DNA of 64,000 nucleotides from a virus (IMGVR_UViG_3300027899_000001:124001-188000); one strand, 5' to 3'. Shown: positions 11,835 through 58,618, numbered from the stretch's first letter. Made by a program: numbers and translations. The notes: generated by a model not told the origin, from the letters alone.

Positions 11835-12338
11835 TTAAAACTCAGTATCACTAAAATATTTTACGTATTCAGATTTTATAACAAAACTTACACCAAAAAA
11901 ATCATATTCATCTTCAAATGGTTCAGAAGGATGTGTAGTTATTTCTTCAGTCATACAATCTAAAATATTTGCTTTTTTTAATAAGTATTTTGATAATTCT
12001 ATTTTATTTACTGGATTTTTATCTTTGTTAAAATACCTATCTGAATAATACTGAAAATGAAATATATGCTTTCCTAAATCTTCATATACTCTCATATACT
12101 GTAAACAATTACTTGGAGATATTGGTCTAACTCCTTTATCAGGACGATTTGAATCTGTGTATATATAAATCCGTGTGTTACTTATTAAATCATATATTAT
12201 CTTTCTAGACTTTTTAATTATATTAGAAATTCCTATTCCTAAATCATGAACAGGATCTGATTCTTCAGTAAATTTCTCATTTACTGATTCTAATAATTTA
12301 TCTACAATTATATTTACAAATTTCAAAATATTTTTCAT
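11835..12338 (-). CDS. signature-motif protein, possibly a detached polyprotein module
   Basis: A 167-residue protein with the signature SVNEKFTEESDPVHDLGIG at about residues 18-36. The ESVNEKF form preceded by a linker is otherwise seen only at internal modules. The domain after it ends with FVIKSEYVKYF, the same ending (IKPEYxxYF) as modules 2 and 3 of the gene at 12298. It overlaps that gene by 41 bp in another frame. I infer that it was, or still is by frameshift, the fourth module of that polyprotein. The body resembles module 3 (RPISPSNCLQYMRVYEDL versus RLISGPSSLRHLRIFNRL). Confidence 0.65.
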   Translation of the reverse strand: MKNILKFVNIIVDKLLESVNEKFTEESDPVHDLGIGISNIIKKSRKIIYDLISNTRIYIYTDSNRPDKGVRPISPSNCLQYMRVYEDLGKHIFHFQYYSDRYFNKDKNPVNKIELSKYLLKKANILDCMTEEITTHPSEPFEDEYDFFGVSFVIKSEYVKYFSDTEF

Positions 12339-13560
12339 ATTCAGGTTTTATTGTAAATTCAAAATCCCATACAGAAAACTCAGAATTTTTATTTGTGTAC
12401 TTATTAACTTCTGGCGCCATTTGAAAATTTGGTTCTAAAAAGGCGTCCAAATTTGATTCCTTTAATAAATCTTTTATATATTTTATTTTGTTTATTTCAA
12501 TGCCATTAACATCTCTATAGATATTACTAAATAAGCCTATATCTAAAATTAACTTTTCTTCGTTAGATGTATTTAATCTATTAAATATACGTAAATGTCT
12601 TAGACTTGATGGCCCTGATATTAATCTAAGATTTTCTTTACGAATGTCAGAATCGTATACATAAATCTTTTTATTAGTACAATCATCTAAGCATCTTTTA
12701 ATTAATTTTTTAATAGAATTTTTAATAGATACTGGCAGTCCAATTCCTAAATCATGAATTGGATCACCTTCTTCTGTAAATTTTTCATTTACATTTTTAA
12801 TACTTTTAAATAAATCTTGATATTCTGGTTTAATATCATATTCTATGGTCTTATTATCATATCCATAATCTCTTTCTTTTCCAGGAAATATTAAATAAGA
12901 ACTTAATCCTACATTTTTTAATGCTCCATTCATACGTGCTTTTAAATGCCATTTATAATATGATTCTATTATAGCTATAATAAATTTATTGTTTGATATA
13001 TAAAGCGATTTAACAAAAAATTGATTATGTCTATACGCTCTGAATTTTTTTAATTTATCTTTAATCTCTTGAGTATATCCTATACCCATATCAGCAATAG
13101 GATCGCTGTCTTCTGTAAAAGCTTCATTTATACGTACATAGTGTTCTTTTTTAGAGGTATCTATTACGCCTGGATCAGATACCCACCTTGAATCTCCATG
13201 TATTCCTGCCGTTTCATAATCTGGAAATTCTCCTCTACGAATATAGAGATCAGTGCCGTTTCTTCTTGATATACGTGGACCATACATAATTCCAGTTCCT
13301 GAACCTTTTATATAAAGACCTACTTTTTCCATTAATCTTCTTCCTCTTTTTACCTCTGCTTCAGTAAGAAACTGCTTATAATATTTCTGCAGCCACTTAA
13401 GTAAGTCAACATGATCAGGATTAGAAAAATCTATTAAACGATTTATAACTGGTTGGCTTACATAAAAATAATAATAAACACGTTTTGCTCCTATATTCAA
13501 ATCATGAACAGGATCTGATTCTTCTTTAAATTTTTCGTTTATATGTTCTCTTACTATCAT
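12298..13560 (-). CDS. three-module signature-motif polyprotein
   Basis: Three copies of the signature occur: INEKFKEESDPVHDLNIG near the N-terminus, INEAFTEDSDPIADMGIG in the middle, and VNEKFTEEGDPIHDLGIG in the third part. The chosen start at 13560 gives MIVREHINEKF like its paralogues; a longer frame to 13590 exists. Modules 2 and 3 end in the same IKPEYxxxF block, so they are distant copies, while module 1 differs. The start overlaps the stop of the upstream gene as ATGA, so translation is probably coupled. Cleavage at the V/I-N-E sites would release three small proteins (inference). Confidence 0.7.
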   Translation of the reverse strand: MIVREHINEKFKEESDPVHDLNIGAKRVYYYFYVSQPVINRLIDFSNPDHVDLLKWLQKYYKQFLTEAEVKRGRRLMEKVGLYIKGSGTGIMYGPRISRRNGTDLYIRRGEFPDYETAGIHGDSRWVSDPGVIDTSKKEHYVRINEAFTEDSDPIADMGIGYTQEIKDKLKKFRAYRHNQFFVKSLYISNNKFIIAIIESYYKWHLKARMNGALKNVGLSSYLIFPGKERDYGYDNKTIEYDIKPEYQDLFKSIKNVNEKFTEEGDPIHDLGIGLPVSIKNSIKKLIKRCLDDCTNKKIYVYDSDIRKENLRLISGPSSLRHLRIFNRLNTSNEEKLILDIGLFSNIYRDVNGIEINKIKYIKDLLKESNLDAFLEPNFQMAPEVNKYTNKNSEFSVWDFEFTIKPEYEKYFEICKYNCR

Positions 13561-14033
13561 ATCGTTATTCCATGTATTGGTGTTTTGCAAACTGCTAAAA
13601 CATCTTCTGTTGTAAATTTTCCAGGATTACCAGAACATATAAAATGATGTTGAACTTCTAGCGGCGCGTATTTTAAAGAACGTAATCTATTGTTTGCGCA
13701 AGAAAAAGTTCCCCAATAATCATTCGATTCTAATACATATTTTGGACATCCTCTTAATGTTGTTAATTTATTTGATTGAATATTAAATGCTCCTATAACT
13801 GTTCCAAATTGAATGTATGGAGGTAATTCTGAATAAGGCCCAAGTTTTCCTTGTGATAAAAAAACATGGCATTCTTCAACATCTATAGTCAAATCATTAT
13901 TTATTGTGTATTTATTTGAAGGTATTCCCATTTTATCTAACCACTCAATTATCATTTTTTTAGAGCCAATGCCCATATCATGAACAGGATCAGATTCTTC
14001 TGCAAATTTTTCATTTATATATAGTGCTCTCAT
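13557..14033 (-). CDS. signature-motif protein with leucine-rich-like module
   Basis: A 158-residue protein starting MRALYINEKFAEESDPVHDMGIG. Its body has the pattern LPPYIQFGTVIGAFNIQSN..LTTLRGCPKYV...FSCANNRLRSLKYAP...HFICSGN, a short leucine-rich-like repeat set shared with modules at 28630, 30225, 46641, 47471 and 52885. The end (FTTEDVLAVCK) is also shared. It lies in an ATGA-overlapping chain with the genes on both sides. The repeat is suited to protein binding; the partner is unknown. Confidence 0.7.
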   Translation of the reverse strand: MRALYINEKFAEESDPVHDMGIGSKKMIIEWLDKMGIPSNKYTINNDLTIDVEECHVFLSQGKLGPYSELPPYIQFGTVIGAFNIQSNKLTTLRGCPKYVLESNDYWGTFSCANNRLRSLKYAPLEVQHHFICSGNPGKFTTEDVLAVCKTPIHGITI

Positions 14034-14470
14034 ACGACCTCAAAATGTTTATTCCAAATTAAAATATTGGCCTTTTTAGCCCACCATGTCCAGTGTTTTT
14101 TCCAAAAATTGTAATCATAAGAACGAGAAGCAGAGGTATCCCAAGCATTTTTACAATCATCTGGGTCTCCAAATGGAACTGCTTCAATATAGATATTGCC
14201 ATTTTTATATTTTTTAACAGTCATAACTATATAATAAAAATCATTAGCTGTAAGAGTATATCTAACATCACGTTGAGTTTTTTCAAATTCTAACCTATAT
14301 TTATCGCCCTCATCTGCTTTAACATGTGTATATATCATGTATACATCAGTTTTATTATGTATAATATCACTCGGTTTGATATAAGCCCATTTTAATCCTA
14401 TTCCTAAATCATGAATAGGATCACTTTCTTCAGTAAATTTCTCGTTTATGTATTCTTTTACTATTTTCAT
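14030..14470 (-). CDS. signature-motif protein, unique module
   Basis: A 146-residue protein with MKIVKEYINEKFTEESDPIHDLGIG at the N-terminus. The C-terminal part (about 110 residues) is beta-rich with many Trp and Tyr residues and no recognised domain. It is the first gene after the NrdJ terminator and overlaps the next gene by 4 bp. Only the N-terminal signal links it to its neighbours, which fits a shared targeting tag in front of unrelated cargo. Confidence 0.65.
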   Translation of the reverse strand: MKIVKEYINEKFTEESDPIHDLGIGLKWAYIKPSDIIHNKTDVYMIYTHVKADEGDKYRLEFEKTQRDVRYTLTANDFYYIVMTVKKYKNGNIYIEAVPFGDPDDCKNAWDTSASRSYDYNFWKKHWTWWAKKANILIWNKHFEVV

Positions 14471-14485
14471 ATATTCTATTTATCT

Positions 14486-14517
14486 AAAAAACAAAAGCTC
14501 CAATTTCTTGGAGCTTT
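14486..14517 (-). terminator. rho-independent terminator after nrdJ
   Basis: The minus strand has AAAGCTCCA/TGGAGCTTT around AGAAAT, followed by TGTTTTTT. It separates NrdJ from the signature-motif cluster that starts at 14470. Confidence 0.8.
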
Positions 14518-14521
14518 AATT

Positions 14522-21621: not shown

Positions 21622-22779
21622 TTATTTATTTTCATTCATTTGTTGTGAAAACTCATCAAATGTAATAATTTCATGTTCAAACTTTTTTGTAGTTATAGCG
21701 TTTTGATTTCCCTTTTCTTTTTTCGTTTTAAACGGAGATGTTTTTCCACCTTTTAACATTTTACCTATTGTAGTATTATCATTGTGTGGATTAGTGTTCT
21801 CTTCTTCTATCTTTTTAGGACGTTTTTTAGCAACAGTTTTCCTTTTTTTCTTAGGATTTGGTGATTGTGTATATGGTTTCTTATTTATAGAATTACCCCA
21901 ATTATCTCCAGAGCCTGTTGATGATGTACCTGTCATTTGAGCTCCAGTTGTAGCTGCCATAGAAGCTGGTGCTCCTGTACCCATTCCTGGTGTAGCTCCG
22001 GCTCCCATCATTTCACTTACTGTTCGTGCTTTCATATTTGAATTTTTATTTTCATTTTTTTGAACTATTACATTTCTTAAAAATCTTGATTGAAAAAGTT
22101 CATCTTTATCTCCTTTTCTAATCGTAATATATCTTCTATAATATCTATTTAATATTTGCCAATATTCTTCCTTTAAAATAGAACTCTTATCTTCCTTATC
22201 TGCTATAATTTCATTTAAATCATCTACTTTCAATATATGAGGAGCAACTTCATAAAGCCATTCAGCAAAATCCTCCCAAGTATCAAAAGTTCTTTTAGCA
22301 TATACGCCTATTCCTAAATCTTTAATAGGATCTGAATGTTCTGTAAATTTTTCATTTACACTTGAGTTTTGTTTTTTCTTTAAGATTTTTAAAAATTCTT
22401 TAAAACTATTATAAGTATTAGGAGCTAATAGTTTTTCAGATATTATTTGTTTGCTAATTTGTTTTAAATCTAAGTCAATTCTATCTAATAAAAAGAATGC
22501 CTGATCAAAATATTTTTTCCAAATTAAATTTATAAAAAGATGTCTTCCTTGTTCTTCTTTATCAAATTGATTAGTAGACATAAAGTAATCTGCAAAATCA
22601 TATCTATTATGAACTAAAAGATATCGTAATGTATAGTATCCTCCTGCATTTTCATCATTTTTTAACCCATGATATCCTCTATATTTGTCTAAAGCCCGTT
22701 TCATTCCAATACCCATATCATGAACAGGATCAGTATCTTCAACAAACTTTTCATTTATTTTAAGCTTTTGCATTTTCAA
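21622..22779 (-). CDS. two-module signature-motif polyprotein with Pro/Lys-rich tail
   Basis: A 385-residue protein. Signature copies are KINEKFVEDTDPVHDMGIG at the start and VNEKFTEHSDPIKDLGIG at about residue 142. Module 1 is helical, ankyrin-like in feel (YTLRYLLVHNRYDFADYFM). Module 2 has the FAEWLYEVAPHILKVDD...YITIRKGD pattern shared with 32844, 45560 and 50974. A low-complexity region (GAGATPGMGTGAPAS...) and a basic NPKKKRKTVAKKRPKK stretch follow. It overlaps the HAD gene by 20 bp. Confidence 0.65.
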   Translation of the reverse strand: MKMQKLKINEKFVEDTDPVHDMGIGMKRALDKYRGYHGLKNDENAGGYYTLRYLLVHNRYDFADYFMSTNQFDKEEQGRHLFINLIWKKYFDQAFFLLDRIDLDLKQISKQIISEKLLAPNTYNSFKEFLKILKKKQNSSVNEKFTEHSDPIKDLGIGVYAKRTFDTWEDFAEWLYEVAPHILKVDDLNEIIADKEDKSSILKEEYWQILNRYYRRYITIRKGDKDELFQSRFLRNVIVQKNENKNSNMKARTVSEMMGAGATPGMGTGAPASMAATTGAQMTGTSSTGSGDNWGNSINKKPYTQSPNPKKKRKTVAKKRPKKIEEENTNPHNDNTTIGKMLKGGKTSPFKTKKEKGNQNAITTKKFEHEIITFDEFSQQMNENK

Positions 22780-23310: not shown

Positions 23311-23784
23311 TTAATAACGTAATAAAAATTGTTTTGTGTTAAATTGAATGACAGCTTCTATCGTTCCTATAAATTGTTTCATATTATCTTCAGATTTATA
23401 TTCATCTTCATTATATTCATATTGAAATGTTCCTATTTTTCCAGCACTTGTATTATATAATTTAAATATACATATTTCTTCATGTGCTCCCGATGTTCTA
23501 AATTTGCTATTATGTATTAATCTTCCTTTTCTTATAACATTTCTAATTTCACTTATATTAGCAACTCTATTATTTTGTGTATCAGCAAGAAAATATACAT
23601 GACCTAAAGGCAAGTTAAACGCTTTTAATACTCTTTGCACCCAATCATTATCCATGCCGCCCATTTTACCATTAAATAATTCTGCACTTTTTACCTGTTC
23701 TCTTAGTTTTTTTAATCCTATACCCATATCATGAACTGGATCTGATTCTTCTCTAAACTTTTCGTATATATATTGAGCTTTCAT
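23311..23784 (-). CDS. signature-motif protein, unique module
   Basis: A 157-residue protein starting MKAQYIYEKFREESDPVHDMGIG. Here the residue before the invariant Glu is Tyr rather than Asn. The C-terminal body (WVQRVLKAFNLPLGHVYFLADT...FKLYNTSAGKIGTFQYEYNE) is alpha/beta. It resembles the gene at 46207 (FFELPLSDVYYIGDEGE...IRKLYNNKKELFKGFI), so these two form a pair. The function is unknown. It overlaps the upstream gene by 4 bp. Confidence 0.65.
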   Translation of the reverse strand: MKAQYIYEKFREESDPVHDMGIGLKKLREQVKSAELFNGKMGGMDNDWVQRVLKAFNLPLGHVYFLADTQNNRVANISEIRNVIRKGRLIHNSKFRTSGAHEEICIFKLYNTSAGKIGTFQYEYNEDEYKSEDNMKQFIGTIEAVIQFNTKQFLLRY

Positions 23785-24137
23785 TCTTCTATAAAAATTT
23801 TTTCATCTCCTGTAGAAAAATATTCATTATCTTCTTCACTAATAAACGCAAAATTTGAAGAGGTTTCAATAGATTTATTTGTAGTATCATCTGTAAAATG
23901 AAATCTAACAGATTTTACAGGAAATGTATAATTTTTTTCTGGACTATTCCATCCACCTTTATGAAATTTTCCTGATACTTTTTTTCCTTTGAATTGTGAT
24001 ATCCAATCTCTCCATTCTACATAAGCAACTCCTAAAATATCATGGTGTACTTTTCTAGGACTTACTCCCCCAATTCCCATGTCATGAACAGGATCTGATT
24101 CTTCGTCAAATTTCTCAAATATACCATGTGCTCTCAT
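23781..24137 (-). CDS. signature-motif protein, unique module
   Basis: A 118-residue protein with MRAHGIFEKFDEESDPVHDMGIG. The body (WISQFKGKKVSGKFHKGGWNSPEKNYTFPVKSVRFHFTDD) is a small beta-type domain. It is distantly like the second module of 45560 (FIKGLPGKTITGVFEGSKKSLTFKI). It is the first gene after a terminator and is preceded by the AT-rich element at 24147. Confidence 0.62.
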   Translation of the reverse strand: MRAHGIFEKFDEESDPVHDMGIGGVSPRKVHHDILGVAYVEWRDWISQFKGKKVSGKFHKGGWNSPEKNYTFPVKSVRFHFTDDTTNKSIETSSNFAFISEEDNEYFSTGDEKIFIEE

Positions 24138-26275: not shown

Positions 26276-27370
26276 CTATTTTAAATTAAAATATTTAAAA
26301 TATTCATCTTTAATCTTCCAATAATATATAATATTATCTATTGTGTTTTTATACCCATACACCTTTTTAGTTAAACCCGGTTGAAAAATAAGATACTCTA
26401 ATAATCCCATTTCTTTTAATATATCAGTTATATGTTGCAAAGCATCTTTATGCGGCATTTCTTTTCCAAACAAAATAAGATGTCGTTGTATATCAAACGC
26501 ATATTGATATGATCCAAAATGATTTTTATTTACCTGCCATAATTTTCCTAATTTATTTTGTATAACATGTTCAATACCAATTCCCAAATCAGTAATTGGA
26601 TCCGATTCTTCAGAAAATTTCTCTTGTAAATATGGCTTTTTGGGCTTAAATGGTTTTACTTCTATATAAAAAAATTTCTTTAGCGCATAAATAACTTTAT
26701 CAAGTTCTATCTTATCGCCCCTTCTAATGATTAAATCATTTATTGTATCTTCAAATATTTTTTGTATATCTTCTTGATTATCAATATCTTTATTTACAAT
26801 ATGTTTTAAAACTTTAAAAACGGCAAATGCTTCATTTGTAAATTTTTCATTTCCATAATAATGTATAGCAGACTCAATTGAATTTATTCCACCTTCTCTT
26901 TTAAGTTCCTTTTCCCAGAATTTTTTTATGCCTATTCCTAAATCAGCGATTGGATCTGATTCTTCTTCGAATTTTTCGTATACTTTTCGTCTTTTTGGCT
27001 TAACAGGATTTATAATTATATGAAAATATTTATCTAAACACTCAGCTATTTTTTTAAGATCTATATATTCATCACTACTATATCTATAATATCTGTTTAT
27101 AGCTTTTTCATATTGATATTGAAGATCTTTTGATTCAATAGAACCTTGTTGTATAACACCTTCTAATACTAAATATACTACATAAATTTCTTCGCCGTAT
27201 TTATCTGTTCCATAATACTCTTTTGATAATGTTCCGACACCCTTTCTGCCCATATCATAATAGGCAGTTCTCCATGATTTTAATAGATATTCTTTTCCAA
27301 TACCTAAATCATGGACAGGATCTGTCTCCTCAGAAAATTTTTCGTTTATATGTTCTTTAATTATCTTCAT
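26276..27370 (-). CDS. three-module signature-motif polyprotein
   Basis: Signature copies are INEKFSEETDPVHDLGIG, VYEKFEEESDPIADLGIG and LQEKFSEESDPITDLGIG. The start at 27370 (MKIIKEHINEKF) is chosen by analogy with paralogues; the frame extends to 27430. Modules 1 and 2 are relatives of each other (...FEDTINDLIIRRGDKIELDKVIYALKKFFYI versus ...YEKAINRYYRYSSDEYIDLKKIAECLDKYFHI) and of module 1 at 52885. Module 3 ends like 12298 modules (YWKIKDEYFKYF). The residue before the invariant Glu is Asn, Tyr or Gln, which fits a protease-site rule. Confidence 0.7.
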   Translation of the reverse strand: MKIIKEHINEKFSEETDPVHDLGIGKEYLLKSWRTAYYDMGRKGVGTLSKEYYGTDKYGEEIYVVYLVLEGVIQQGSIESKDLQYQYEKAINRYYRYSSDEYIDLKKIAECLDKYFHIIINPVKPKRRKVYEKFEEESDPIADLGIGIKKFWEKELKREGGINSIESAIHYYGNEKFTNEAFAVFKVLKHIVNKDIDNQEDIQKIFEDTINDLIIRRGDKIELDKVIYALKKFFYIEVKPFKPKKPYLQEKFSEESDPITDLGIGIEHVIQNKLGKLWQVNKNHFGSYQYAFDIQRHLILFGKEMPHKDALQHITDILKEMGLLEYLIFQPGLTKKVYGYKNTIDNIIYYWKIKDEYFKYFNLK

Positions 27371-27626
27371 GAGTTTTTGCATAACGATCATGGCCAGCTT
27401 TCCATGCTTTATGCAATGGTGTTCCCACATTTATACTATGTGAAATCGTTTTTCCTGCTAATCCAGATAAAAACATTTTATTTATAGTTTTACTTTTATC
27501 CAATTTTTCTGGATCTACTTTAGCATAATAATTATATACTTTAGTTAACTGTGCCTCATTTTCATTAAGAAATTCATCAAGAGATTCTGCTATGAAATTT
27601 TCTTTTTTATTAACATTTTTTTCCAT
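27357..27626 (-). CDS. small protein with head-type N-terminus
   Basis: An 89-residue protein. The N-terminus KKENFIAESLDEFLNENEAQL has I-A-E|S and L-N-E|N, both fitting an (I/L)-x-E cleavage rule, and resembles the start of the protein at 21389. The remainder (YNYYAKVDPEKLDKSKTINKMFLSGLAG...) is helical with no known motif. Its 3' end overlaps the next gene's start by 14 bp. Confidence 0.55.
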   Translation of the reverse strand: MEKNVNKKENFIAESLDEFLNENEAQLTKVYNYYAKVDPEKLDKSKTINKMFLSGLAGKTISHSINVGTPLHKAWKAGHDRYAKTHEDN

Positions 27627-43662: not shown

Positions 43663-45563
43663 TTTCTGAATTTATATAAGTTTGAATCTTCTGGTAAAAA
43701 TTTACCTTGTAATCCTAATCTATCTTGATTTTTAATCCAATACTCCTGTAACATAGTTGGAATATCTGTTCTTGTCGAATCTAATATCTTTAAGTAAATA
43801 TCGTAAATCTTATATAACTCAGATTGCGAAAGGTTTTTAACAAGAAACTCTCGAAGTTTATAAAAGTTATTAAGTGTTTCTCGAGTTAAAGTATCTCTAA
43901 AATTATATAACTTATTTAATAATTCTATTACTTCAGTAGGATTAGTCGCATCATATTCTGTAGTTTCTGAATTATATACTCCAGAACCATGACGGAAAGT
44001 TCTTTTCTTATTTGCGAATAGCGCTACTATTAACTGAGTTCTATGTAATCCTTTCACATTACCCTCATAAGATTCTGAGTGATAACTAAAAGTTAACCAA
44101 TCCATGTTTCCAATATTCACATCTATCTGAACATCTTTACCAACTTTCTGTCCTTGTTCATTATATTGTGGAAAACAACAGAATATAGTTCCAGCGCCAG
44201 AGTTCTTAGGATCAGCGAGTAACCCTTTAGCGATTAGTTTATCTACAATTATTTTCACCATTGAACCTAACTTAAGTTGTTTTTCAGACGCTGAGCGAGC
44301 GCGTTTCTTCTTAAGTTCGTATACTTCTGTGAATTCTTCAGGACTTATTCCCCAATCATCTAATTTAACTTCGTTATTCTCAAATATAGTATCTTCACTA
44401 AGCGCTAAATCTATATCTCCTGAAATATCTTTCTTTCCCGCAGATCCGAGTAATTTAAATTCGAAATCAACGTTTGGAAAAATAAAATTAAGTTTCTTTG
44501 TGAATCTATCCATAGTTGGTGGAATATCTTCTCGTTTAATAGGTCCTGTACCATCAAAAATATTACCCCCTTCAAATAATCGAGGAGTAAAAGATTCTTT
44601 AATATTTTGTGTATTTTCTTTAATTGCGCGAGAAATTTTATTATATACGCATTTTTCATTTTCACAATAATACGCCCAATAACTACTATCTTCACGAATT
44701 TCATATTTAAATCTTCTAAATGATGAATCATCATATTCTCCTACTATATTTTCTATGTTATATTTTACTCCCTTTACTTTATAATAAGCGCTCTTTTTAT
44801 GTATAGAAAATTCTTCCTTTTTTGGAATATAAATTTTACCTCCAAATTTTTGTTTAAGTTTATATAGAGCTGCGTGTAGAGGATTTCCTATACCTAAATC
44901 ATGAATAGGATCTGATTCTTGTGTAAATTTCTCGTTTACTGATTCTGTAATAACGTTTTTAGTCATATCCCAAATAGTTTCTACTATCGATTCTCTTATT
45001 CCGGGATAATTGGTTTTAAAGTTTCCATAATCATCGTTTAAAATATCTTGACGTAATATAGTTCCAGATATTATTTCTCCTTCATTTTCATCTGTACGAC
45101 CTTCATATCTAATTGGAGATATATCTATCGGAAGTTCTATAACTTTAACATCTGGGTGTTTTAGATGATAATATTTTCCGGTTTCAAGATGATCTTTAAC
45201 GAATTTAGTAACTCTGCCATAATCAGTATCTTTTTCTGAACCACCCATCGCATAAACTCCCGGTTGCGCTGCTTCTATAAACTTATACGCTGCCAACACA
45301 GGAACTTTAACTTCTTCTACACTAACATTATGTAAATCTTCTAAAAGTAATAAAGCGATCTGTACAGCCTCTACTGGAGTTATTCCATTACGAACGCCTG
45401 AACCTATAAAAATTCTAACTTCTTTAACTTTCGGATTTTCTACATAGCGCCTAATCATATTTACATGACCTATGTGCATAGGTTTAAAACTTCCAGGTAA
45501 TAACACGGTTATTCCTTCGTTTATATTTTCGTTTAACCAACTTATATATGATGAAAATTTCAT
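43659..45563 (-). CDS. NMNAT-like domain plus signature module plus nucleotidyltransferase domain
   Basis: A 634-residue protein with three parts. Residues about 17-205 are a cytidylyltransferase/NMNAT-like domain (LPGSFKPMHIGHVNMI, then SGTILRQDI). Then SVNEKFTQESDPIHDLGIG at about 210 opens a short module of about 110 residues. The last part has a Pol beta-type motif (LLGSAGKKDISGDIDLAL) and QIDVNIGNMDWL. The N-terminus has ISWLNENINEG with I-N-E|G. Prohead-protease cleavage would separate enzymes from tag. Packaging of nucleotide-modifying enzymes is inferred. Confidence 0.7.
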   Translation of the reverse strand: MKFSSYISWLNENINEGITVLLPGSFKPMHIGHVNMIRRYVENPKVKEVRIFIGSGVRNGITPVEAVQIALLLLEDLHNVSVEEVKVPVLAAYKFIEAAQPGVYAMGGSEKDTDYGRVTKFVKDHLETGKYYHLKHPDVKVIELPIDISPIRYEGRTDENEGEIISGTILRQDILNDDYGNFKTNYPGIRESIVETIWDMTKNVITESVNEKFTQESDPIHDLGIGNPLHAALYKLKQKFGGKIYIPKKEEFSIHKKSAYYKVKGVKYNIENIVGEYDDSSFRRFKYEIREDSSYWAYYCENEKCVYNKISRAIKENTQNIKESFTPRLFEGGNIFDGTGPIKREDIPPTMDRFTKKLNFIFPNVDFEFKLLGSAGKKDISGDIDLALSEDTIFENNEVKLDDWGISPEEFTEVYELKKKRARSASEKQLKLGSMVKIIVDKLIAKGLLADPKNSGAGTIFCCFPQYNEQGQKVGKDVQIDVNIGNMDWLTFSYHSESYEGNVKGLHRTQLIVALFANKKRTFRHGSGVYNSETTEYDATNPTEVIELLNKLYNFRDTLTRETLNNFYKLREFLVKNLSQSELYKIYDIYLKILDSTRTDIPTMLQEYWIKNQDRLGLQGKFLPEDSNLYKFRK

Positions 45564-46207
45564 TTAGTTATATAATATTTTTCGTATTTTTTTATAGTAT
45601 GTTTAATTCCAATAGTATCTATCAAGATTACTTCTGTTCCCATTCCGTAACTAGCTGAATCTGCTATTTTAAATGTTAGAGATTTTTTACTTCCTTCAAA
45701 AACTCCAGTTATTGTTTTTCCCGGCAAACCTTTTATAAAATATAACCACTCTTCATAACCATCATCTGCATTTATAATACTTCTAATAGTGTTTTCAGAA
45801 AGTTCATAAAAATTTACAACATCTACTCCTATTCCCATACTACTAACAGGATCAAATTCTTCTTCAAATTTTTCGTTAACTTTTTTATATAATTTATCTT
45901 TAACAAGTTGTTTAAATTCATCAACCCATAATGTATCAACTCGCATACCTCGTATTGTTACATATTTGCGTATAAATGCCATTATTTGCACATAATAATC
46001 ATGATTTATAACACATTCACCCGGATCTTTTAAAATATCTTCTATTTTTTCAAGATGTAATAATATTGCCGCATTTTTATATAACCATTTATGAAGATCT
46101 AGATAATTATTAAAATCTCTTTTCATATATAATCCTATGCCCATATCTCTTATAGGATCAGAATCTTCTACAAATTTCTCGTTAATATGTTCTCTAACTA
46201 CTTTCAT
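45560..46207 (-). CDS. two-module signature-motif protein
   Basis: A 215-residue protein. Module 1 (MKVVREHINEKFVEDSDPIRDMGIG) has the KRDFNNYLDLHKWLYKNAAILLHLEK...YVTIRGM pattern shared with 21622, 32844 and 50974. The second signature is divergent, KKVNEKFEEEFDPVSSMGIG at about residue 114. It is followed by a beta-type domain resembling 23781 (GKTITGVFEGSKKSLTFKI). It overlaps genes on both sides by 4 and 1 bp, so translation is coupled. Confidence 0.65.
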   Translation of the reverse strand: MKVVREHINEKFVEDSDPIRDMGIGLYMKRDFNNYLDLHKWLYKNAAILLHLEKIEDILKDPGECVINHDYYVQIMAFIRKYVTIRGMRVDTLWVDEFKQLVKDKLYKKVNEKFEEEFDPVSSMGIGVDVVNFYELSENTIRSIINADDGYEEWLYFIKGLPGKTITGVFEGSKKSLTFKIADSASYGMGTEVILIDTIGIKHTIKKYEKYYITK

Positions 46208-46644
46208 TAAAATTTTCTCTCATGTAATTTTGTATGATACGCCATTTGAATATCACCTAAATAATAAATATAATCACTGCGTGACGCTTCTGTTAGTGTA
46301 GCAATTTTTCCAAATTCTGTAATAAATCCTTTAAATAATTCTTTTTTATTATTATATAATTTTCTTATTTTTAATTGTTTTTTATTATTTACAGTAAATT
46401 GTTTTATTTCTTCTTTCATAAATCCTTCAAATTCACCTTCATCACCTATATAATACACATCTGATAAAGGAAGTTCAAAAAAATTATGTATTAATTTCTT
46501 TTCATGTGGACTTAAAACTAATGATCTGTTAACACCATGTTTTTCAATTTTTGGTGCGATACTGTATATTCCTATACCCATATCATGGATAGGATCAGAT
46601 TCTTCTTTAAATACTTCGTTAATATATTCTCTTACTAATTTCAT
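46207..46644 (-). CDS. signature-motif protein
   Basis: A 145-residue protein with MKLVREYINEVFKEESDPIHDMGIG, where Lys after the invariant Glu is replaced by Val. The body (LIHNFFELPLSDVYYIGDEGEFEGF...IRKLYNNKKELFKGFITEFGKIATL) is related to 23311. The function is unknown. It overlaps the upstream and downstream genes by 4 and 1 bp. Confidence 0.62.
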   Translation of the reverse strand: MKLVREYINEVFKEESDPIHDMGIGIYSIAPKIEKHGVNRSLVLSPHEKKLIHNFFELPLSDVYYIGDEGEFEGFMKEEIKQFTVNNKKQLKIRKLYNNKKELFKGFITEFGKIATLTEASRSDYIYYLGDIQMAYHTKLHERKF

Positions 46645-47474
46645 TTTTGTAGTGGAGCATTTAATTTCATTGATGTAATTACATCGCCTTTTACTTCACA
46701 ACGGCTTCTAATCTCTTCTTCTGTAAATTCTACATCGTTACCAACTATTACATAATTTCCACCAATATATTTTGGCATTCCTTCTAAAGATTTCAAACGA
46801 CATGTATAAACTGCAAAATTTCCACCAACGTGTCTAGGAAAACCTTTTAATGTTGTTATTTCTCCTAAAATTATTACGAATCCTAATTTTGTTTTATTAA
46901 ATTGAATATAATCTGGAAAATCTTGAAAATTTTTGCCTATAGTATAAATTTCATCATAAAGGTCAATAGTTCCGTCTTGTCTTATTTTATATCTTTTTAT
47001 CTCATGTTCTTTTAACCATTTCTTAATTTTAGGAATTACACCAATACCTAAGTCTTGTACAGGATCAGAATCTTCTATAAATTTTTCATTTACAGATTCT
47101 TTTAATTTGTCTATTTCTTCTGGTTTAGGAATCTCAAAATGTTCTAAAAACTTTTTTCCTGATAATGTTAAATATTCATCTCCGACAAACACAAAATCTG
47201 GGAACCTGAACCATTTTGGAAATTTCTCATATGTAACTAAATTTAATTTAATTTTTCCTTTAGGTGTAAAATTTATTTCTTTAATTACACAATAAGAATC
47301 AGGAGTAATATGAAAATTAGAAACAGGATATTGAGGAACTCTAGGTTTTATACTTTTTTTACATCTAATAATATCACCGCGCTTTAGTTTATGAAATATA
47401 CCAATTCCTAAATCATAAATAGGATCGCTATCTTCAACAAATACTTCATTAATATATTCTCGTACTATATTCAT
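46641..47474 (-). CDS. two-module signature-motif protein with leucine-rich-like second module
   Basis: A 277-residue protein. Module 1 (NIVREYINEVFVEDSDPIYDLGIG) is a small beta domain (KRGDIIRCKKSIKPRVPQYPVSNFHITPDSYCVIKEI) resembling an SH3-like fold. Module 2 begins ESVNEKFIEDSDPVQDLGIG at about residue 128. It has FPDYIQFNKTKLGFVIILGEITTLKGFPRHVGGNF...GNDVEFTEEEIRSRCEVKG, the leucine-rich-like pattern. It sits in an ATGA chain. Confidence 0.66.
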   Translation of the reverse strand: MNIVREYINEVFVEDSDPIYDLGIGIFHKLKRGDIIRCKKSIKPRVPQYPVSNFHITPDSYCVIKEINFTPKGKIKLNLVTYEKFPKWFRFPDFVFVGDEYLTLSGKKFLEHFEIPKPEEIDKLKESVNEKFIEDSDPVQDLGIGVIPKIKKWLKEHEIKRYKIRQDGTIDLYDEIYTIGKNFQDFPDYIQFNKTKLGFVIILGEITTLKGFPRHVGGNFAVYTCRLKSLEGMPKYIGGNYVIVGNDVEFTEEEIRSRCEVKGDVITSMKLNAPLQK

Positions 47475-47947
47475 GTAGTTCTTATCTTATCTTTTGCTAT
47501 TTTACAATATTTCTGTACGTATTCTCTTGTAAATCTTTTTTTATTACCACCACACATAAATTTTTTGCCAATAATTTCTGGACAATATTCTAATGAAGTT
47601 AATTTATTAAATCTGCAATCAAAATCGCCAGTTACTATTTTAGGACATCCCCTAAGAGTTGTCATATTACAATTACATATTATAAATTCTCCATCTATTT
47701 TATTAAAATTTATATACTCTGGAAAATTTCCGCAATTATCTGGAAGCGCAGTAAATCCTTGGCAATCTATAGTGCCATCGTTATTTATAGTGTAATTTCT
47801 AATTCCATCACACTGATTATTATTAGATATTCTATTTATCATTCCTATCCATTTTTCAATTTTGTGTATTATTCCTATACCCATATCTTGTATAGGATCT
47901 GATTCTTCTGAAAATTTTTCGTTGATATGTTCTCGGACTATGTTCAA
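47471..47947 (-). CDS. signature-motif protein with leucine-rich-like module, TTG start
   Basis: A 158-residue protein. The start codon is TTG (47947-47945), reading (M)NIVREHINEKFSEESDPIQDMGIG. The body repeats FPEYINFNKIDGEFIICNCNMTTLRGCPKIVTGDFDCRFNKLTSLEYCPEIIG in pieces. It ends FTREYVQKYCKIAKDK. It is closest to 28630. It is first in the 42.8-47.9 kb unit, with the AT-rich element 6 nt upstream at 47954 and a terminator beyond. Confidence 0.68.
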   Translation of the reverse strand: MNIVREHINEKFSEESDPIQDMGIGIIHKIEKWIGMINRISNNNQCDGIRNYTINNDGTIDCQGFTALPDNCGNFPEYINFNKIDGEFIICNCNMTTLRGCPKIVTGDFDCRFNKLTSLEYCPEIIGKKFMCGGNKKRFTREYVQKYCKIAKDKIRTT

Positions 47948-50973: not shown

Positions 50974-52164
50974 ATGAAAATAGTACGAGAACATATAAAT
51001 GAAAAATTTTCTGAAGAATCTGATCCTGTACATGATTTAGGCATAGGCATAATACATGCTATTGAAAAATTCTGTGATAAACACAGAAAAGTGATAATGC
51101 CTACTTATGAGTGTGATGAAAAAGATATTATGCTATTAATATGTGTTGATAGAAAAAAGCATGATTATGTAGAAGATTTATTAAAATTAGGAGCTAATGT
51201 ACATACAAGCGCTGGAATACATCTGGGTAATGAAGATCTACCTGTTAGATACGCAATATGGAACAATGATTATGAAATGACAGAATTATTATTAAAATAT
51301 GGAGCATCTATAGAAAACGCATTTGATGAGGATGTTCTTGAACTTATAGAAACTGGAGATTATATGGGTGGAAAAAAAAGTAAAGAATTAATAGACTTAG
51401 TAAAACAACATTTAGAAAAACCAGTAAATGAAAAATTTTCTGAAGAATCAGATCCTATATATGATTTAGGAATAGGAATAATTACAAAACTTAGAAAATT
51501 TTTAAAAGATCATCACTGCGATAATTTTGATTTACGTTATAAACCTGATCAAGATAAAGCTCTTTCTTTATGTGTTAAAACCAATACTCCAGATTTTATA
51601 CAGTATTTAGTATCATTGGGAGCAGACCCTAATTTTAGTCCTGAAGATAAAGATTTTGGGTTATATTTAATGAATGCTGCATACGTAGAAGATTGGGAAG
51701 TTTGTAAAGCTTTAGTTAATAGCGGAGCAGATTTAGATAAAACTATAACATGTTCGATAGATAGACAGACTCCGATAACTTTAAAAAATCTTGAAAGATT
51801 TAAAGAAATGATAGAAAATCCTATAAATGAAAAATTTTCAGAAAAATCAGATCCTATTAAAGATATGGGTATAGGTTTATATACAATAAGAAATTTTGAA
51901 AATTTAAATGAAATAGCAGAATTTATCATATCTATAATGCCATATATTTTAAAAACACATAAAATTCCTGAAGATATTATACATTCTGAGGCTTTTATAC
52001 TAAAACAAAAATATATTAAACCTCTTGATAATTATATTTATAAATATATTAGATTAAATAATGAAGAAATAACATCAGCAATAGATTATAAATTATTTGA
52101 AAATATGTTAAGTATTTTAGCAAAAAGAGGCTTTAAATATCCTAAAACTAAATTCATACATTAA
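50974..52164 (+). CDS. three-module signature-motif polyprotein on the opposite strand
   Basis: A 396-residue protein with three signatures: MKIVREHINEKFSEESDPVHDLGIG, VNEKFSEESDPIYDLGIG and INEKFSEKSDPIKDMGIG. Modules 1 and 2 are ankyrin-like (YVEDLLKLGANVHTSAGIHLG; FIQYLVSLGADPNFS...CKALVNSGADLD). Module 3 is the WLY/ITIR type (FENLNEIAEFIISIMPYILKTHK). It is the only family member on the plus strand in the window, with its own short upstream region. The three copies are nearly identical at the tag, which suggests recent duplication. Confidence 0.75.
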   Translation: MKIVREHINEKFSEESDPVHDLGIGIIHAIEKFCDKHRKVIMPTYECDEKDIMLLICVDRKKHDYVEDLLKLGANVHTSAGIHLGNEDLPVRYAIWNNDYEMTELLLKYGASIENAFDEDVLELIETGDYMGGKKSKELIDLVKQHLEKPVNEKFSEESDPIYDLGIGIITKLRKFLKDHHCDNFDLRYKPDQDKALSLCVKTNTPDFIQYLVSLGADPNFSPEDKDFGLYLMNAAYVEDWEVCKALVNSGADLDKTITCSIDRQTPITLKNLERFKEMIENPINEKFSEKSDPIKDMGIGLYTIRNFENLNEIAEFIISIMPYILKTHKIPEDIIHSEAFILKQKYIKPLDNYIYKYIRLNNEEITSAIDYKLFENMLSILAKRGFKYPKTKFIH

Positions 52165-52246: not shown

Positions 52247-52888
52247 CTAGACTAAACACTGAATTTCCTCTTTTTTCAATATAGTTTGTATTACCCAATA
52301 CGCATCTACAAGATCATCTACATGTTCTATCCAATTCCTTCCTCCTTTTTTCATGAAAATTTCTCGTTTTTCAAACAATTTTAAACGAAACTTACAATGA
52401 GGTGGTCCTGAACGAATAAATTCGTCGATCATCTCAGATTTTCCCATTCCTTTTTTTGCACAACCAGCTATACTTTTAATTGTAATAGGAGAATAAGTAT
52501 ACATATGATCTAATGAAACATATTGGGAAAGTTCATTCATCAATATATATTTGTAACCACCTAATTGTATTCCAGAATCTCCTCCCGATCCATAAGATAA
52601 CCCTTCAAATGCGAGATAGGTATCTCCATTAAAGTAACACTTAAGTGATTCAGTGATAAGATTTGAAAGGTATCTTGCGTTTTCTACTTCCCAACGCATT
52701 TTGGAAGTTAATCCTAATTCATGTTCTTTATTATCTATACGATCAATTATAGTTATACCAGATTCTCTAAAAGTTTTAATAGATTTGTCAGAAATTGAAT
52801 ATGGCCAACTCATAAAAGAATATTTGCCATTTGAAAAGATGCATGCCGCTGGTTTATTTATTGAAAAATCGAATCCAATTATATTCAT
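52247..52888 (-). CDS. RuvC-like Holliday junction resolvase
   Basis: A 213-residue protein. The RNase H-fold acidic set is IGFDFSINKPA (first Asp), LAFEGLSYGSGGDSG (Glu), and VDDLVDAYWV (last Asp pair) with AKKGMGKSEM before it. This matches RuvC-type crossover junction nucleases found in phages. It probably resolves branched DNA before packaging, as gp49 does in T4. It overlaps the gene at 52885 by 4 bp. Confidence 0.75.
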   Translation of the reverse strand: MNIIGFDFSINKPAACIFSNGKYSFMSWPYSISDKSIKTFRESGITIIDRIDNKEHELGLTSKMRWEVENARYLSNLITESLKCYFNGDTYLAFEGLSYGSGGDSGIQLGGYKYILMNELSQYVSLDHMYTYSPITIKSIAGCAKKGMGKSEMIDEFIRSGPPHCKFRLKLFEKREIFMKKGGRNWIEHVDDLVDAYWVIQTILKKEEIQCLV

Positions 52889-53667
52889 TTATCTTTAAGT
52901 GTTAATGCGTGAAAATCATGATAGTCAGGATAATGATAAGTAAGTATGTTAACTAATCTTACTGCACATTTTTTACGTATATCTTCAAATGTAAAATCAG
53001 GAATAATATCAGTATAAATAGTTAAAGTTCCTCCTACATAATCAGGCAAATATTTTAATTGGTTTTTAGTTTTAAATACACAAGAAAATTGTCCTGTTAT
53101 TTTTCCAAATTTAATATAAGACGGCAAGTTAGTATTTTCTAAAGAAGAAAAATTTACATATTCTGCATTTATCTTTAAATCTTTACTTATATTTTCGCCT
53201 TTAATAAAACCACGTTTTCTTAATTCTGTTACAAAGGAATCAATTTTTTGCCTAATGCCTATACCCATATCATGAATAGGATCAGAATCTTCTGTAAAGG
53301 CTTCATTTAATGGATCTACATTGATATAAAAATGTTCTTTAAGAACTTCTGCAACTATTTTTCTAGCTTTTAACATATCTTTTTTTGTGTCATTTATATG
53401 AGAAAATGCTCGGCATGAATTATTGAAAGCAATTTGAACTGGTATATTTCTAATAGCATCTGAAATAGTAAATGACGCTATAGCAGCATATTTATGTTTA
53501 TAATAAAAAGAATATTTAGAAAAAAATTTTTCTACAAACTCTTCGGGATTTTTATTTATTTTTTCATTTTCAATTTTCCAAAAATTTATTAAACCTATTC
53601 CCAAATCTTTTATTGGATCGCTTTCTTCTGTGAAAATTTCGTTTATATGTTCTCTAACTAATCTCAT
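52885..53667 (-). CDS. two-module signature-motif protein
   Basis: A 260-residue protein. Module 1 begins MRLVREHINEIFTEESDPIKDLGIG and is related to 26276 modules 1 and 2 (helical, ending VAEVLKEHFYINVDP). Module 2 begins LNEAFTEDSDPIHDMGIG at about residue 122. It is leucine-rich-like (LPSYIKFGKITGQFSCVFKTKNQLKYLPDYVGG...FTFEDIRKKCAV). The second tag has Ala after the Glu. It lies in the chain with 4-bp overlaps on both sides. Confidence 0.66.
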   Translation of the reverse strand: MRLVREHINEIFTEESDPIKDLGIGLINFWKIENEKINKNPEEFVEKFFSKYSFYYKHKYAAIASFTISDAIRNIPVQIAFNNSCRAFSHINDTKKDMLKARKIVAEVLKEHFYINVDPLNEAFTEDSDPIHDMGIGIRQKIDSFVTELRKRGFIKGENISKDLKINAEYVNFSSLENTNLPSYIKFGKITGQFSCVFKTKNQLKYLPDYVGGTLTIYTDIIPDFTFEDIRKKCAVRLVNILTYHYPDYHDFHALTLKDK

Positions 53668-54440
53668 GCGTATTTTCCCATATCATTTGCTAACATATCA
53701 ACTAAATCACTTACGTATCTTGGGCTTTTATTATACTCATTTTTATATTTTCTTCTAAGATAATTTTTAATATCATCGTCGTATATCATACTTTCTGCTG
53801 AATCATGAATATAAGAATATGCATCATCATCGTCATCAATACTATGTTTTATATCAATGACAGCGCCCTTTATCATTTTTTCATATTCTCGTTTGGTCAT
53901 TATCTTTTCTTTTTCTCGATAGCCTCTTTGTCTTTGTTTAGGAATTATCTTTCCATTTTGTTCTAACCAATCTGAAGCAACTAATTTCTTTTTTCCAGAT
54001 TTATCAATAACTGTTACAAGATCGTATTTATAACTATGGTCTTCTACCTTAATTATATGGTAATGATTATCTTTTGTTTCCACATTCATTCCTTTTCGGA
54101 ACTTACTTACTTCATTAGCTTCGTTTAAAGATTCTTTAAGAGCTCCTTTATCTTGAAATATTTTTTCTAATGCAAGATAATGAACAGATCCTTTAGGAAC
54201 ATATCCTTCATAACCAAAATCATCAGTTAAATCATTATTTTTACAATGAGCAAACCAAAATTCATCTTGACTTTTTATACATCCCCTTCCTGCATCAGGA
54301 ATCCATACTACATTCTTTTTTATAGGATGTTTTTCTCCAAATTGTTCAAGTGCTTTTATTTTATCACGAAGATCAAACCAATAAGTTACACTTCGATAAT
54401 CTTTTGCTTTTAATTTTTCGTTAAGTAATTTTGCTCTCAT
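53664..54440 (-). CDS. hypothetical protein with head-type N-terminus but no signature
   Basis: A 258-residue protein. The start MRAKLLNEKLKAKDYRS matches the first part of the signature proteins (MRAxxLNEKF) with L-N-E|K, but the SDP-GIG part is absent. Inside, KGMNVETKDNHYHIIKVEDHSYKYDLVTVIDKSGKKKLVASDWL looks like a small SH3-type domain. The C-terminus is acidic/helical (DDDDAYSYIHDSAESMIYDDDIKNYL). The AT-rich element lies 12 nt upstream at 54453. It may be an ancestral or decayed form. Confidence 0.55.
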   Translation of the reverse strand: MRAKLLNEKLKAKDYRSVTYWFDLRDKIKALEQFGEKHPIKKNVVWIPDAGRGCIKSQDEFWFAHCKNNDLTDDFGYEGYVPKGSVHYLALEKIFQDKGALKESLNEANEVSKFRKGMNVETKDNHYHIIKVEDHSYKYDLVTVIDKSGKKKLVASDWLEQNGKIIPKQRQRGYREKEKIMTKREYEKMIKGAVIDIKHSIDDDDDAYSYIHDSAESMIYDDDIKNYLRRKYKNEYNKSPRYVSDLVDMLANDMGKYA

Positions 54441-55538: not shown

Positions 55539-55830
55539 CAAGACGACTTGTCATTAATTTTCCTAATACTCCTGTTTCTTCTATTCCAAGAACTTTACAA
55601 ATAGCTTTTCCAATTGCTGGACCAGCAAGAGCGCCAACACCGGCTCCTAATAAACCTGTGAAAATTCCTTCGTCTATTTCTTCGCCCTTTTCAAGTTTAT
55701 CTACAATAAGATTATAAGTTCTTTCAGCTTCTTGAATTTGAGTAGCAGTTAATCCTTTAATATCTTCAGATTCAAATATCTTTGAAGTTGTTGAATATTT
55801 TAAATCGTTATATGTCGGAAATTTTTCCAT
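55504..55830 (-). CDS. Gly-rich membrane protein
   Basis: A 108-residue protein. The N-terminal half is helical and charged (LTATQIQEAERTYNLIVDKLEKG). The C-terminal half has glycine-zipper-like hydrophobic segments (GIFTGLLGAGVGALAGPAIGKA and TAAMGYALA). Such segments often insert in membranes and form oligomers. It could be a pore or holin-type protein or a head protein. The 5' end is overlapped by the next gene's 3' end by 31 bp. Confidence 0.5.
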   Translation of the reverse strand: MEKFPTYNDLKYSTTSKIFESEDIKGLTATQIQEAERTYNLIVDKLEKGEEIDEGIFTGLLGAGVGALAGPAIGKAICKVLGIEETGVLGKLMTSRLVTAAMGYALAR

Positions 55831-56357
55831 GATAATATATTTTTATTTATATATTCTTTATTTAGCGTCCATATAATTGTTTTTTTAATGCTATTTGTTT
55901 TTTTTAATTCTTTTTGTAATTGTTTTATTTTATCTGATAAATATCTTTCACTTCCATAACGTATTATGTCTAATTCTCTAATTATTGGTTTTAAATTATT
56001 TGGAAGAGAATAAAGTGGACCCGCAGTATCATCAGCCTGAGATATTACAAACCAACCTATTTCTGGTTTTAAATTAGTTAATGAATGTTCTGCTATTATG
56101 TCTTCTGCTGCTTCAACAGATTCTGCGAAATAAATATCTATGTCTTCAAAATCAGAATCCCAACAAGTTATATAGTAAATATCATTAGAATCTCCTGATG
56201 TCATAGATATTTTATCATAATCAAATTCTGTATCATATCTTTTATCAATTATATGTATAAATTGTTCTATAATTTCTTCGGGTTTAATACCAATGCCCAT
56301 ATCTTTGATAGGATCTGATTCTTCTTTAAATTTTTCAGTTATATATTGTGCTTTCAT
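55800..56357 (-). CDS. signature-motif protein, unique module
   Basis: A 185-residue protein with MKAQYITEKFKEESDPIKDMGIG, where the residue before the invariant Glu is Thr. The body (IIEQFIHIIDKRYDTEFDYDKISM...YYITCWDSDFEDIDIYFAESVEAAEDI...IGWFVISQAD) is alpha/beta and acidic. It then has a basic helical end. No family was recognised. It overlaps the tail-tube-like gene by 4 bp. Confidence 0.62.
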   Translation of the reverse strand: MKAQYITEKFKEESDPIKDMGIGIKPEEIIEQFIHIIDKRYDTEFDYDKISMTSGDSNDIYYITCWDSDFEDIDIYFAESVEAAEDIIAEHSLTNLKPEIGWFVISQADDTAGPLYSLPNNLKPIIRELDIIRYGSERYLSDKIKQLQKELKKTNSIKKTIIWTLNKEYINKNILSWKNFRHITI

Positions 56358-56941: not shown

Positions 56942-56991
56942 TTTAAAACTTTTTTAATATATATCTATATAATACTATAATCTATATATTT

Positions 56992-58137
56992 ATGAAGAAT
57001 CCGATTAAAAATCAAAACAACGAATTTATATGTGAAGAATGTAATAAAACATATATCAAATTAGATGGATTATCCAAACATATTGGTGTTATTCATCAAA
57101 ATAAAAAAGAATATTACGACAAATATCTAAAAGAAGAAAATGAAGATATTTGTCCCATATGTGGAAATAAAAATCCATATTTAAATAGATGGGACAGAGG
57201 ATATAAGAAAACCTGTTCAATAAAATGTGCTAATATATTAAGACATCAATTACAAGCAAACACACTATTAAAAAAATTTGGTGTAGAAAATGTTATGCAA
57301 ATAAAAGAAGTTAGAGAAAAATATGAAAATACATGTTTTGAAAAATATGGTGTTAAAAATGCTATAGAAAATAAAGATGTTAGAGAAAAATCAAAACAAA
57401 CTTGTTTAAAACATTTTGGAGTTGAAAATCCATTGCAATCATTAGAAATACAGACACGAGGAAGAAAAACAATGAAAGAAAAATATGGAGCCGAATATAC
57501 TTGGCAATCTGAATCCCTTATGAATAAAGTTAAAGAAATAAATATAAAAAAATATGGGGTTGAGTGCCCTTCTCAAAACGAAAAAATAAAAGAAAAAATT
57601 AAAAAAACAACAAAGGAAACCACAGGATATGAATATAATTTTCAAAATAAAGAATTAATGATAAATTCTATGTTAAATAAATATGGTGTTGAAAATATAT
57701 CTCAATTAGAAGAAACACAAAATAAAATAATAAAAACAAATCTAGAAAAATATGGAGTTACTCACCATTTTCAAAACAAAGAGATTTTTTTAAATGCTCA
57801 GAAAAAAGCATTTAAAGTGTTTCAATTTAAAAATACAAATATTTGGTATCAAGGTTCTTATGAATTAGATTTTATTAATAAATATTATGATAAATTTCCA
57901 GATATACAAAGAGGCCCATCAATTCCATATAAATTAAATAATAAAAATAGAATATATCATGCTGATTTTTTTATTCCATCATTAAATTTAGTTATCGAAT
58001 GTAAAAGTAGTTATTATTATAAAAGATTTAAAAAACAAGATATTGCAAAGAAAAAAGCCACTATTTCTAATGGCTTCAAATATATTATGATAACTAATAA
58101 AAAATATAATAAATTCATTAAATTATATTGCGCTTAA
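56992..58137 (+). CDS. putative homing endonuclease, zinc finger plus PD-(D/E)XK (largest copy)
   Basis: A 381-residue relative of 2455 and 54597. It has the CEECNKTYIKLDGLSKHI...H finger and a CPICGN...C-C cluster. About seven tandem repeats follow of the form KFGVENVMQ, EKYGVKNAIEN, KYGAEYTWQS, KYGVECPSQN and KYGVENISQ. The core is YHADFFIPSLN...LVIECKSSYYY. Here PDF is replaced by ADF. Unlike its paralogues it has no RNA-like structure upstream, only ACTATAATCTATATAT shared with the region before 54597. Confidence 0.7.
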   Translation: MKNPIKNQNNEFICEECNKTYIKLDGLSKHIGVIHQNKKEYYDKYLKEENEDICPICGNKNPYLNRWDRGYKKTCSIKCANILRHQLQANTLLKKFGVENVMQIKEVREKYENTCFEKYGVKNAIENKDVREKSKQTCLKHFGVENPLQSLEIQTRGRKTMKEKYGAEYTWQSESLMNKVKEINIKKYGVECPSQNEKIKEKIKKTTKETTGYEYNFQNKELMINSMLNKYGVENISQLEETQNKIIKTNLEKYGVTHHFQNKEIFLNAQKKAFKVFQFKNTNIWYQGSYELDFINKYYDKFPDIQRGPSIPYKLNNKNRIYHADFFIPSLNLVIECKSSYYYKRFKKQDIAKKKATISNGFKYIMITNKKYNKFIKLYCA

Positions 58138-58147
58138 TATATTCATG

Positions 58148-58618
58148 TTACATTTCTTTATTTATTTTATACAATTCTCTTCCGTGAGCTTTAAGTTTCT
58201 TTGCCAATTGTCTACTTGTAAACTCTTCAGCGCCATTATCTTTTAATAATTTAATCATATCTTCATCTTCATTACTTTTTGCAGTGTTTAGGATGCCATA
58301 GTGTATAGAAAGATGTAAATTTGCTCCTTTTTCTATTAGCCATTTTGCTAATTCTAAATTTTTATTAAGAACTACCCACTCTATAACTGATCCTCTATAC
58401 GCATTTATATCTGCGCCGTTTTCAATTAAATATTTTACATAATCTTCTTTATTTTGTTTAGCACAGTATAATAAACAAGTATCAATATCAACATAATCTG
58501 ATTTTGTAAGTTTTTTTACAAATTCTTTTATTTTATGCATCATTCCAATATCCATGTCTTTTATTGGATCCGATTCTTCTTTAAACTTTTCGTTTATATA
58601 TTCTCTAACTAATTTCAT
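58148..58618 (-). CDS. signature-motif protein with ankyrin-like module
   Basis: A 156-residue protein with MKLVREYINEKFKEESDPIKDMDIG. Three ankyrin-like repeats follow: TCLLYCAKQNKEDYVKYLIENGADI, GSVIEWVVLNKNLELAKWLIEKGANL, GILNTAKSNEDEDMIKLLKDNGA. It is the clearest ankyrin member in the window. It overlaps the structural gene at 58615 by 4 bp, which links the tag family to the virion gene block. Confidence 0.7.
   Translation of the reverse strand: MKLVREYINEKFKEESDPIKDMDIGMMHKIKEFVKKLTKSDYVDIDTCLLYCAKQNKEDYVKYLIENGADINAYRGSVIEWVVLNKNLELAKWLIEKGANLHLSIHYGILNTAKSNEDEDMIKLLKDNGAEEFTSRQLAKKLKAHGRELYKINKEM

Follow-up and report, generated by a model that had tools for sequence, protein, structure and literature searches.

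The closest described counterparts of the system reported here are the internal proteins of bacteriophage T4, which carry leaders of 10-19 residues; in that of IPIII, targeting involves positions 4 and 7, and processing positions 8 and 10, and the T4 protease gp21 cuts after (L/I)-x-E (PMC9026906). Beyond the leader, the internal proteins of T-even phages have no homology to one another, and they inhibit distinct restriction enzymes (PMC12373910). In the T4 record (AF158101), IPII and IPIII share the leader MKTYQEFIAE/A, where a slash, here and below, marks a cut or a proposed cut. Here we describe a short protein tag that precedes many unrelated domains in the 405,016-base record of an uncultured giant phage (IMGVR_UViG_3300027899_000001), starting from a stretch of 64,000 nucleotides at positions 124001-188000 (the window, whose own numbering is used below). 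From sequence comparisons, we read this tag as a bipartite head-loading and processing signal whose cargo is packaged in the head and probably injected, and put the probability of that reading at roughly 0.83.

A tag profile of 24 columns, built from 21 tags of the window and searched against the whole phage record, gave 88 matches, in approximately 62 frames, with E-values (single genome) as low as 2.9e-17. Within the window, 33 matches (31 canonical and two degenerate) lie in 22 open frames between 11835 and 58618 (Table 1), in exact agreement with the count of an earlier, sequence-only reading, which had also placed the sole copy internally in frames 11835 and 43659, as found here. The extent given in that reading proved too narrow, since the tag occurs across the whole genome, where a strict core pattern finds 82 copies in 62 frames, 13 of which hold 2-5 copies. 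A degenerate DNA pattern for the tag matched nothing in bacterial and archaeal genomes totaling 257 Gb; together with the E-values, this excludes a chance origin. In frames 32844 and 47471 the tag lies upstream of the first ATG, and an upstream non-ATG start is therefore needed.

The tag has two parts. A leader of 8-13 residues (mode 10, MKLVREHINE), which ends in [ILV]-x-E in nearly all N-terminal tags and most commonly, before KF, in [ILV]NE, is followed by K-F-x-E-[ED]-S-D-P-[IV]-x-D-[ML]-G-I-G. The form first proposed, (I/L/V)xEKFxEESDPIxDLGIG, stands as one portion of this, to which the conserved leader has to be added. The three main leader forms are M[KR]AxxIxE (8 residues), MK[LI]V[RK]E[HY]INE (10) and MxKFxSYKxWLNE (12-13). 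At internal tags an unrelated linker takes the place of the leader and positions P4-P11 are nearly free (0.5-1.6 bits of information, against 4.3 bits at P1), while P1 is E and P3 is one of [ILVM] in 115 of 115 cases (25 from this phage and 90 from other viruses). Several N-terminal tags have residues inserted between the E and the F, as in IDE/RMGF, INE/TMGF, IHE/AIGF and INE/QLSKF, with [ILV]-x-E usually kept in the leader; because this cut-like site survives changes in spacing, it is an element distinct from the SDPI part. A few untagged proteins of the phage are clear leader-only cases, among them that of frame 53664..54440, so that the leader and the SDPI half are separable as well; across untagged proteins in general, [ILV]NE was only weakly enriched at the N-terminus.

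The first half of the tag closely resembles the T4 signal, and the phage has the T4-type head genes that such a signal would serve. MKLVREHINE and MKTYQEFIAE are both 10 residues long and agree at M1, K2, E6, I8 and E10. The major capsid protein (590 residues) matches the Gp23 family at 4.0e-30, and directly upstream of its gene, a gp21-type protease and a scaffold-like tail are fused in one protein of 781 residues. The protease part matches PF03420 (2.1e-17, over the cut-off), the PHROG head maturation protease (6.1e-40) and the T4 gp21 structure PDB 5JBL (1.5e-4), and it keeps the His and Ser catalytic motifs of gp21 (GELxHP and S-S-R), with GELDHP and SISSRA for GELNHP and GVSSRG. This protease-scaffold protein contains 10 [ILV]NE sites where 0.96 are expected (p=8e-8). 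In the capsid protein, HALNE/A stands at the place of FLTE/A in T4 gp23, and the [IL]NE at this site is conserved in capsid relatives down to approximately 30% identity. In Tenacibaculum phage PTm1, a protein annotated as a scaffold-protease fusion is comparable. The sequence-only reading had suggested a targeting or a processing signal and not a shared enzyme; the comparisons favor both functions at once, targeting because the residues ahead of the conserved E have the length and form of the T4 capsid targeting sequence, and processing because [ILV]xE is a T4-type prohead-protease site that is also found in the phage's own capsid and scaffold proteins. Outside the window, at G000:C1:278804-279730, a second and shorter Gp23-type capsid gene (308 residues, PF07068 3.1e-22) lies far from the main head genes, amid glycosyltransferase-like genes.

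The same anatomy could also be taken for an address inside the infected cell, directing proteins to a replication compartment, a membrane or a host complex, with E-K-F not being a cut site at all. The most conserved stretch, FxEESDPIxDMGIG, does lie after the proposed cut and must act on the mature protein, and many cargoes are interaction repeats such as ankyrin. Such an address leaves unexplained, however, that [ILV]xE persists at altered distances from the F, that the same site occurs in the capsid and scaffold proteins, that the leader and the T4 signal agree in length and at key residues, and that some proteins have the leader alone, and we consider it distinctly improbable.

In the head-loading reading, the leader (approximately 8-13 residues) would bind the prohead core in the manner of the T4 capsid targeting sequence and draw the protein into the growing head, where the prohead protease would cut after [ILV]-x-E, removing the leader and leaving a mature protein that begins KFxEESDPIxDMGIG. 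Proteins with several tags look like prohead-cut polyproteins because their internal copies keep [ILVM]-x-E in predicted disordered linkers; a cut at each internal tag would free modules of approximately 110 residues, each with the same mature N-terminus. The mature proteins would remain with the DNA and would probably enter the host by injection, acting there most likely in counter-defence or takeover. Sequence and homology facts underlie the leader-binding, cutting and polyprotein steps, from which we infer loading and cleavage themselves, and, one step further, we infer injected counter-defence from head loading. The SDPIxDMGIG half is new and finds no explanation in T4; our preferred guess is that it serves to retain the protein in the head or to eject it. 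In the most far-reaching form of this reading, to which we give slightly less than even odds, effector polyproteins of up to five different small modules per gene (up to eight in relatives) would be matured in the capsid by the prohead protease after loading, and all modules would share KFxEESDPIxDMGIG as a retention or ejection address of a kind not described before.

What follows the tag is highly diverse, as had been noticed from the sequence alone: the 82 modules of this phage, mostly of approximately 110 residues, form 36 clusters by sequence, of which 17 are singletons. A folded region always follows the tag, as it would if the tag were the N-terminal piece of one known domain family. 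Against this, Pfam finds only ankyrin families among the cargo, the one type that it clearly recognizes, no PHROG family represents the tag, and the tag sequence was not found in the literature searched. AlphaFold2 moreover places the tag outside the fold: in the protein of 13557..14033, the domain has a predicted local distance difference test score (pLDDT) of approximately 97 and residues 1-19, comprising the leader, the cut site and most of the tag, score below 50, and in a weaker model of the two-module protein of 46641..47474 (mean 65), both tags (residues 1-25 and 126-144) score below 50 and are linker-like. With the tag outside the fold and the downstream domains unrelated, the tag and the region behind it do not make up one domain, the outcome on which the earlier reading would have fallen, and a single domain family is hardly credible. 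The models place the tags in predicted disorder, as an exposed protease site needs. Foldseek found no significant match for the model of the leucine-rich-like domain.

If the proteins are loaded into the head, they might still be structural or DNA-condensing internal proteins and not injected effectors. Compared with other small proteins, the cargo modules are more basic (net charge per 100 residues +2.4 vs 0.0, p=3e-4), and T4 internal proteins have been described as basic; the mature proteins, however, are neutral once the acidic tag is counted, and structural parts would not be expected to turn over so very rapidly or to fall into 36 unrelated sequence clusters, which makes this alternative unlikely. 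There is still less to recommend a relic of recombination, in which conserved DNA would serve module shuffling and the protein sequence would be incidental. Modules have indeed been shuffled, repeated and split, as in the module of 11835..12338, which is homologous to the third module of the neighboring gene 12298..13560 and, by sequence, seems to be a tandem duplicate that was split off, or in a relative with four variant tags in one frame (see below). Synonymous codon identity between tag copies, however, is 0.646, against 0.638 expected from the codon usage of the genome, at a median DNA identity of 74%, which points to selection on the protein and largely refutes this explanation, to which we give very little credence. 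The same agreement rules out recent copying of the tag, and the tag must therefore be old or saturated and held at the protein level.

Among other viruses, a degenerate DNA pattern for the tag picked out 87 stretches of IMG/VR contigs. Untagged genes related to this phage are also present in each of the 44 tag-bearing contigs that were examined (the same phage excluded), and the tag is thus restricted to one clade of giant phages. Tag contigs that reach head genes carry T4-type ones: the protease is present in this phage and in 3300037486_000738, a capsid gene in 3300037486_000465, and both in 3300037104_000773. In the relative 3300005573_000060, whose capsid protein is 70% identical, a variant tag, SDDLTKDLGIG, precedes successive ankyrin arrays within a single 1,276-residue frame (L160:10849-14679), with four variant copies (LLEKFSEESDDLTKDLGIG) between arrays, each preceded by LxE. 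For 4% of the 158 tagged modules found in relatives, this phage has a counterpart (at least 50% identity over 70% of the length), vs 52% for 466 untagged neighbors. By analogy, such fast cargo turnover is the behavior of host-facing genes and mirrors that of the T-even internal proteins. A profile search of seven named records (Lak-C1, T4, PTm1 and four other huge-phage records) gave no tag match, nor did tblastn against cultured phages with a short tag query, an insensitive one at such length. In a distant tagless relative, the 436-kb 3300042261_002385, T4-like leaders are found in stretch L128 and nearby (MKLRRYGQFINE/S and MKYLHKFLHHLNE/S), and such leaders in distant tagless relatives suggest that leader-directed packaging is older than the SDPI half. 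N-terminal enrichment in two distant phages was not significant in three of four comparisons; the sole significant one was for [ILV].E in the 436-kb phage (p=1.5e-4).

Several observations weigh against head loading and injection. Strong conservation extends over the 14 residues behind the cut, a feature that T4 internal proteins lack and that head loading alone does not require. Protease sites inside the cargo are not significantly depleted (observed/expected 0.73-0.84, p=0.32), whereas depletion would be expected if the cargo were accessible to the protease. No cargo has a convincing match to a known anti-defence protein in Pfam, PHROG or PADLOC; in PADLOC, one family matches seven cargoes, apparently through their ankyrin repeats, and there are three further single weak matches. 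Finally, most close capsid-protein relatives show no tag, on contigs that are partial, so that the absence is uninformative. Should the reading nevertheless be correct, one motif would list the head cargo for a whole clade of uncultured giant phages, comprising approximately 62 frames here and a further 160 in relatives, hardly any of which belong to a known family. Candidate injected counter-defence proteins, comparable to the restriction-enzyme inhibitors of T4, could then be computed in large numbers from this clade, and SDPIxDMGIG would offer a new way to ask how a phage head retains or releases proteins.

Table 1. Tagged frames of the window and two untagged frames with related sites
Frame	Strand	Tags	Leader or start	Cargo or remark
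11835..12338	-	12231-12299 (internal)
12298..13560	-	13489-13557; 13078-13146 and 12739-12807 (internal)	MIVREHINE/KF (13489-13557)
13557..14033	-	13965-14033	MRALYINE/KF	leucine-rich-like domain
14030..14470	-	14396-14467
21622..22773	-	22705-22773; 22306-22377
23311..23784	-	23716-23784	MKAQYIYE/KF
23781..24137	-	24069-24137	MRAHGIFE/KF
26276..27430	-	27296-27367; 26930-27001; 26576-26647
28630..29091	-	29017-29088		leucine-rich-like domain
29115..29468	-	29394-29465		ankyrin-like
29878..30225	-	30151-30222
30225..31040	-	30969-31037; 30570-30638 (internal, ILAE/KF)		ankyrin-like, then leucine-rich-like module
32844..33191	-	33120-33191 (degenerate)	upstream of first ATG of frame 32844-33131
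43659..45563	-	44886-44957 (internal)		tag ahead of second domain
45560..46207	-	46133-46204; 45827-45895 (degenerate)
46207..46644	-	46570-46641
46641..47474	-	47400-47471; 47040-47108
47471..47944	-	47873-47944	upstream of first ATG; non-ATG start probable
50974..52164	+	50977-51048; 51409-51477; 51808-51876		two ankyrin modules and one WLY/ITIR-type module
52885..53667	-	53593-53661; 53257-53325
55800..56357	-	56289-56357	MKAQYITE/KF
58148..58618	-	58544-58615		ankyrin repeats
53664..54440	-	none	leader alone, MRAKLLNE/KL
33439..33984	-	none		five [ILV]NE sites in 181 residues (p=3.8e-6 vs proteome)

Two of these frames call for comment. The protein of 43659..45563 begins with another leader type, MKFSSYISWLNE/NINE/G (the MKFxxYxxWLNE type), without the SDPI half; its first domain has no Pfam match and is, in our reading by inspection, nucleotidyltransferase-like. 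A separate polymerase-beta-like nucleotidyltransferase adjoins it at 42823-43662 (Pfam 0.003, below the cut-off). By its sites, the untagged product of 33439..33984 is a candidate prohead-core protein.

Elsewhere in the window, positions 3219-6262 appear by inspection to encode a split NAD-dependent DNA ligase, with the N-terminal part at 5111-6262, the C-terminal zinc/OB part at 3219-4022 and an open reading frame (ORF) at 4090-5064 between them. The protein of 8320-8979 begins with an intein-like C-terminal sequence (IYDLEVEDNHSYNINGVIVHNS) and adjoins other interrupted genes, and 14522-17986 encodes a ribonucleotide reductase large subunit that, at 1,154 residues, is longer than usual and may hold an insertion (PHROG 1.5e-105). 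A zinc-finger-like family of 250-380 residues beginning MKEFxKxxxxFICEEC occurs at 2455-3255, 54597-55538 and 56992-58137 and at approximately 10 other sites in the genome, often on the opposite strand; there are also many HNH-like ORFs (NHHIxPKCLGG), and both are probable homing endonucleases.

Among known head-cargo systems, the Dar proteins of phage P1 are likewise reported to be counter-defence proteins carried in the head and injected, by signals that appear to differ from this tag. The ejection proteins of phiKZ and SPN3US (protease gp175/gp245) also belong to giant phages in which many head proteins are cut after a short xxE by a prohead protease related to gp21. Their propeptides, however, are long (111-130 residues in SPN3US) and share no small tag, and the SPN3US cut motif is AxE, unlike that of this phage, which has leaders of 8-13 residues, a T4-type capsid, and capsid genes nearer to those of T4, Lak and Tenacibaculum phages than to those of phiKZ and SPN3US. 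The Prevotella Lak phages are the nearest named relatives by capsid protein (48%); they too are huge, their T4-type capsid protein is related to the one here, and its propeptide border carries [KIL]xE, but they differ in that the Lak-C1 genome has no tag match. The strongest resemblance is to IPI, IPII, IPIII and Alt of T4, with an N-terminal leader that ends in (I/L)xE after approximately 10 residues, small bodies otherwise unrelated, a protease of the gp21 type, a capsid of the gp23 type and variable gene content. Unlike in T4, approximately 62 frames are involved instead of 3-4 proteins, the leader types MRAKFIYE, MKLVREHINE and MKFxSYKxWLNE differ from MKTYQEFIAE, internal copies repeat, and more than the leader is shared. 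Because the 14-residue motif FxEESDPIxDMGIG that stays after the proposed cut is conserved as well, we regard the tagged set as a variant working like the T4 system and not a plain member of it, and, if our reading holds, as an enlarged version of T4's few injected internal proteins.

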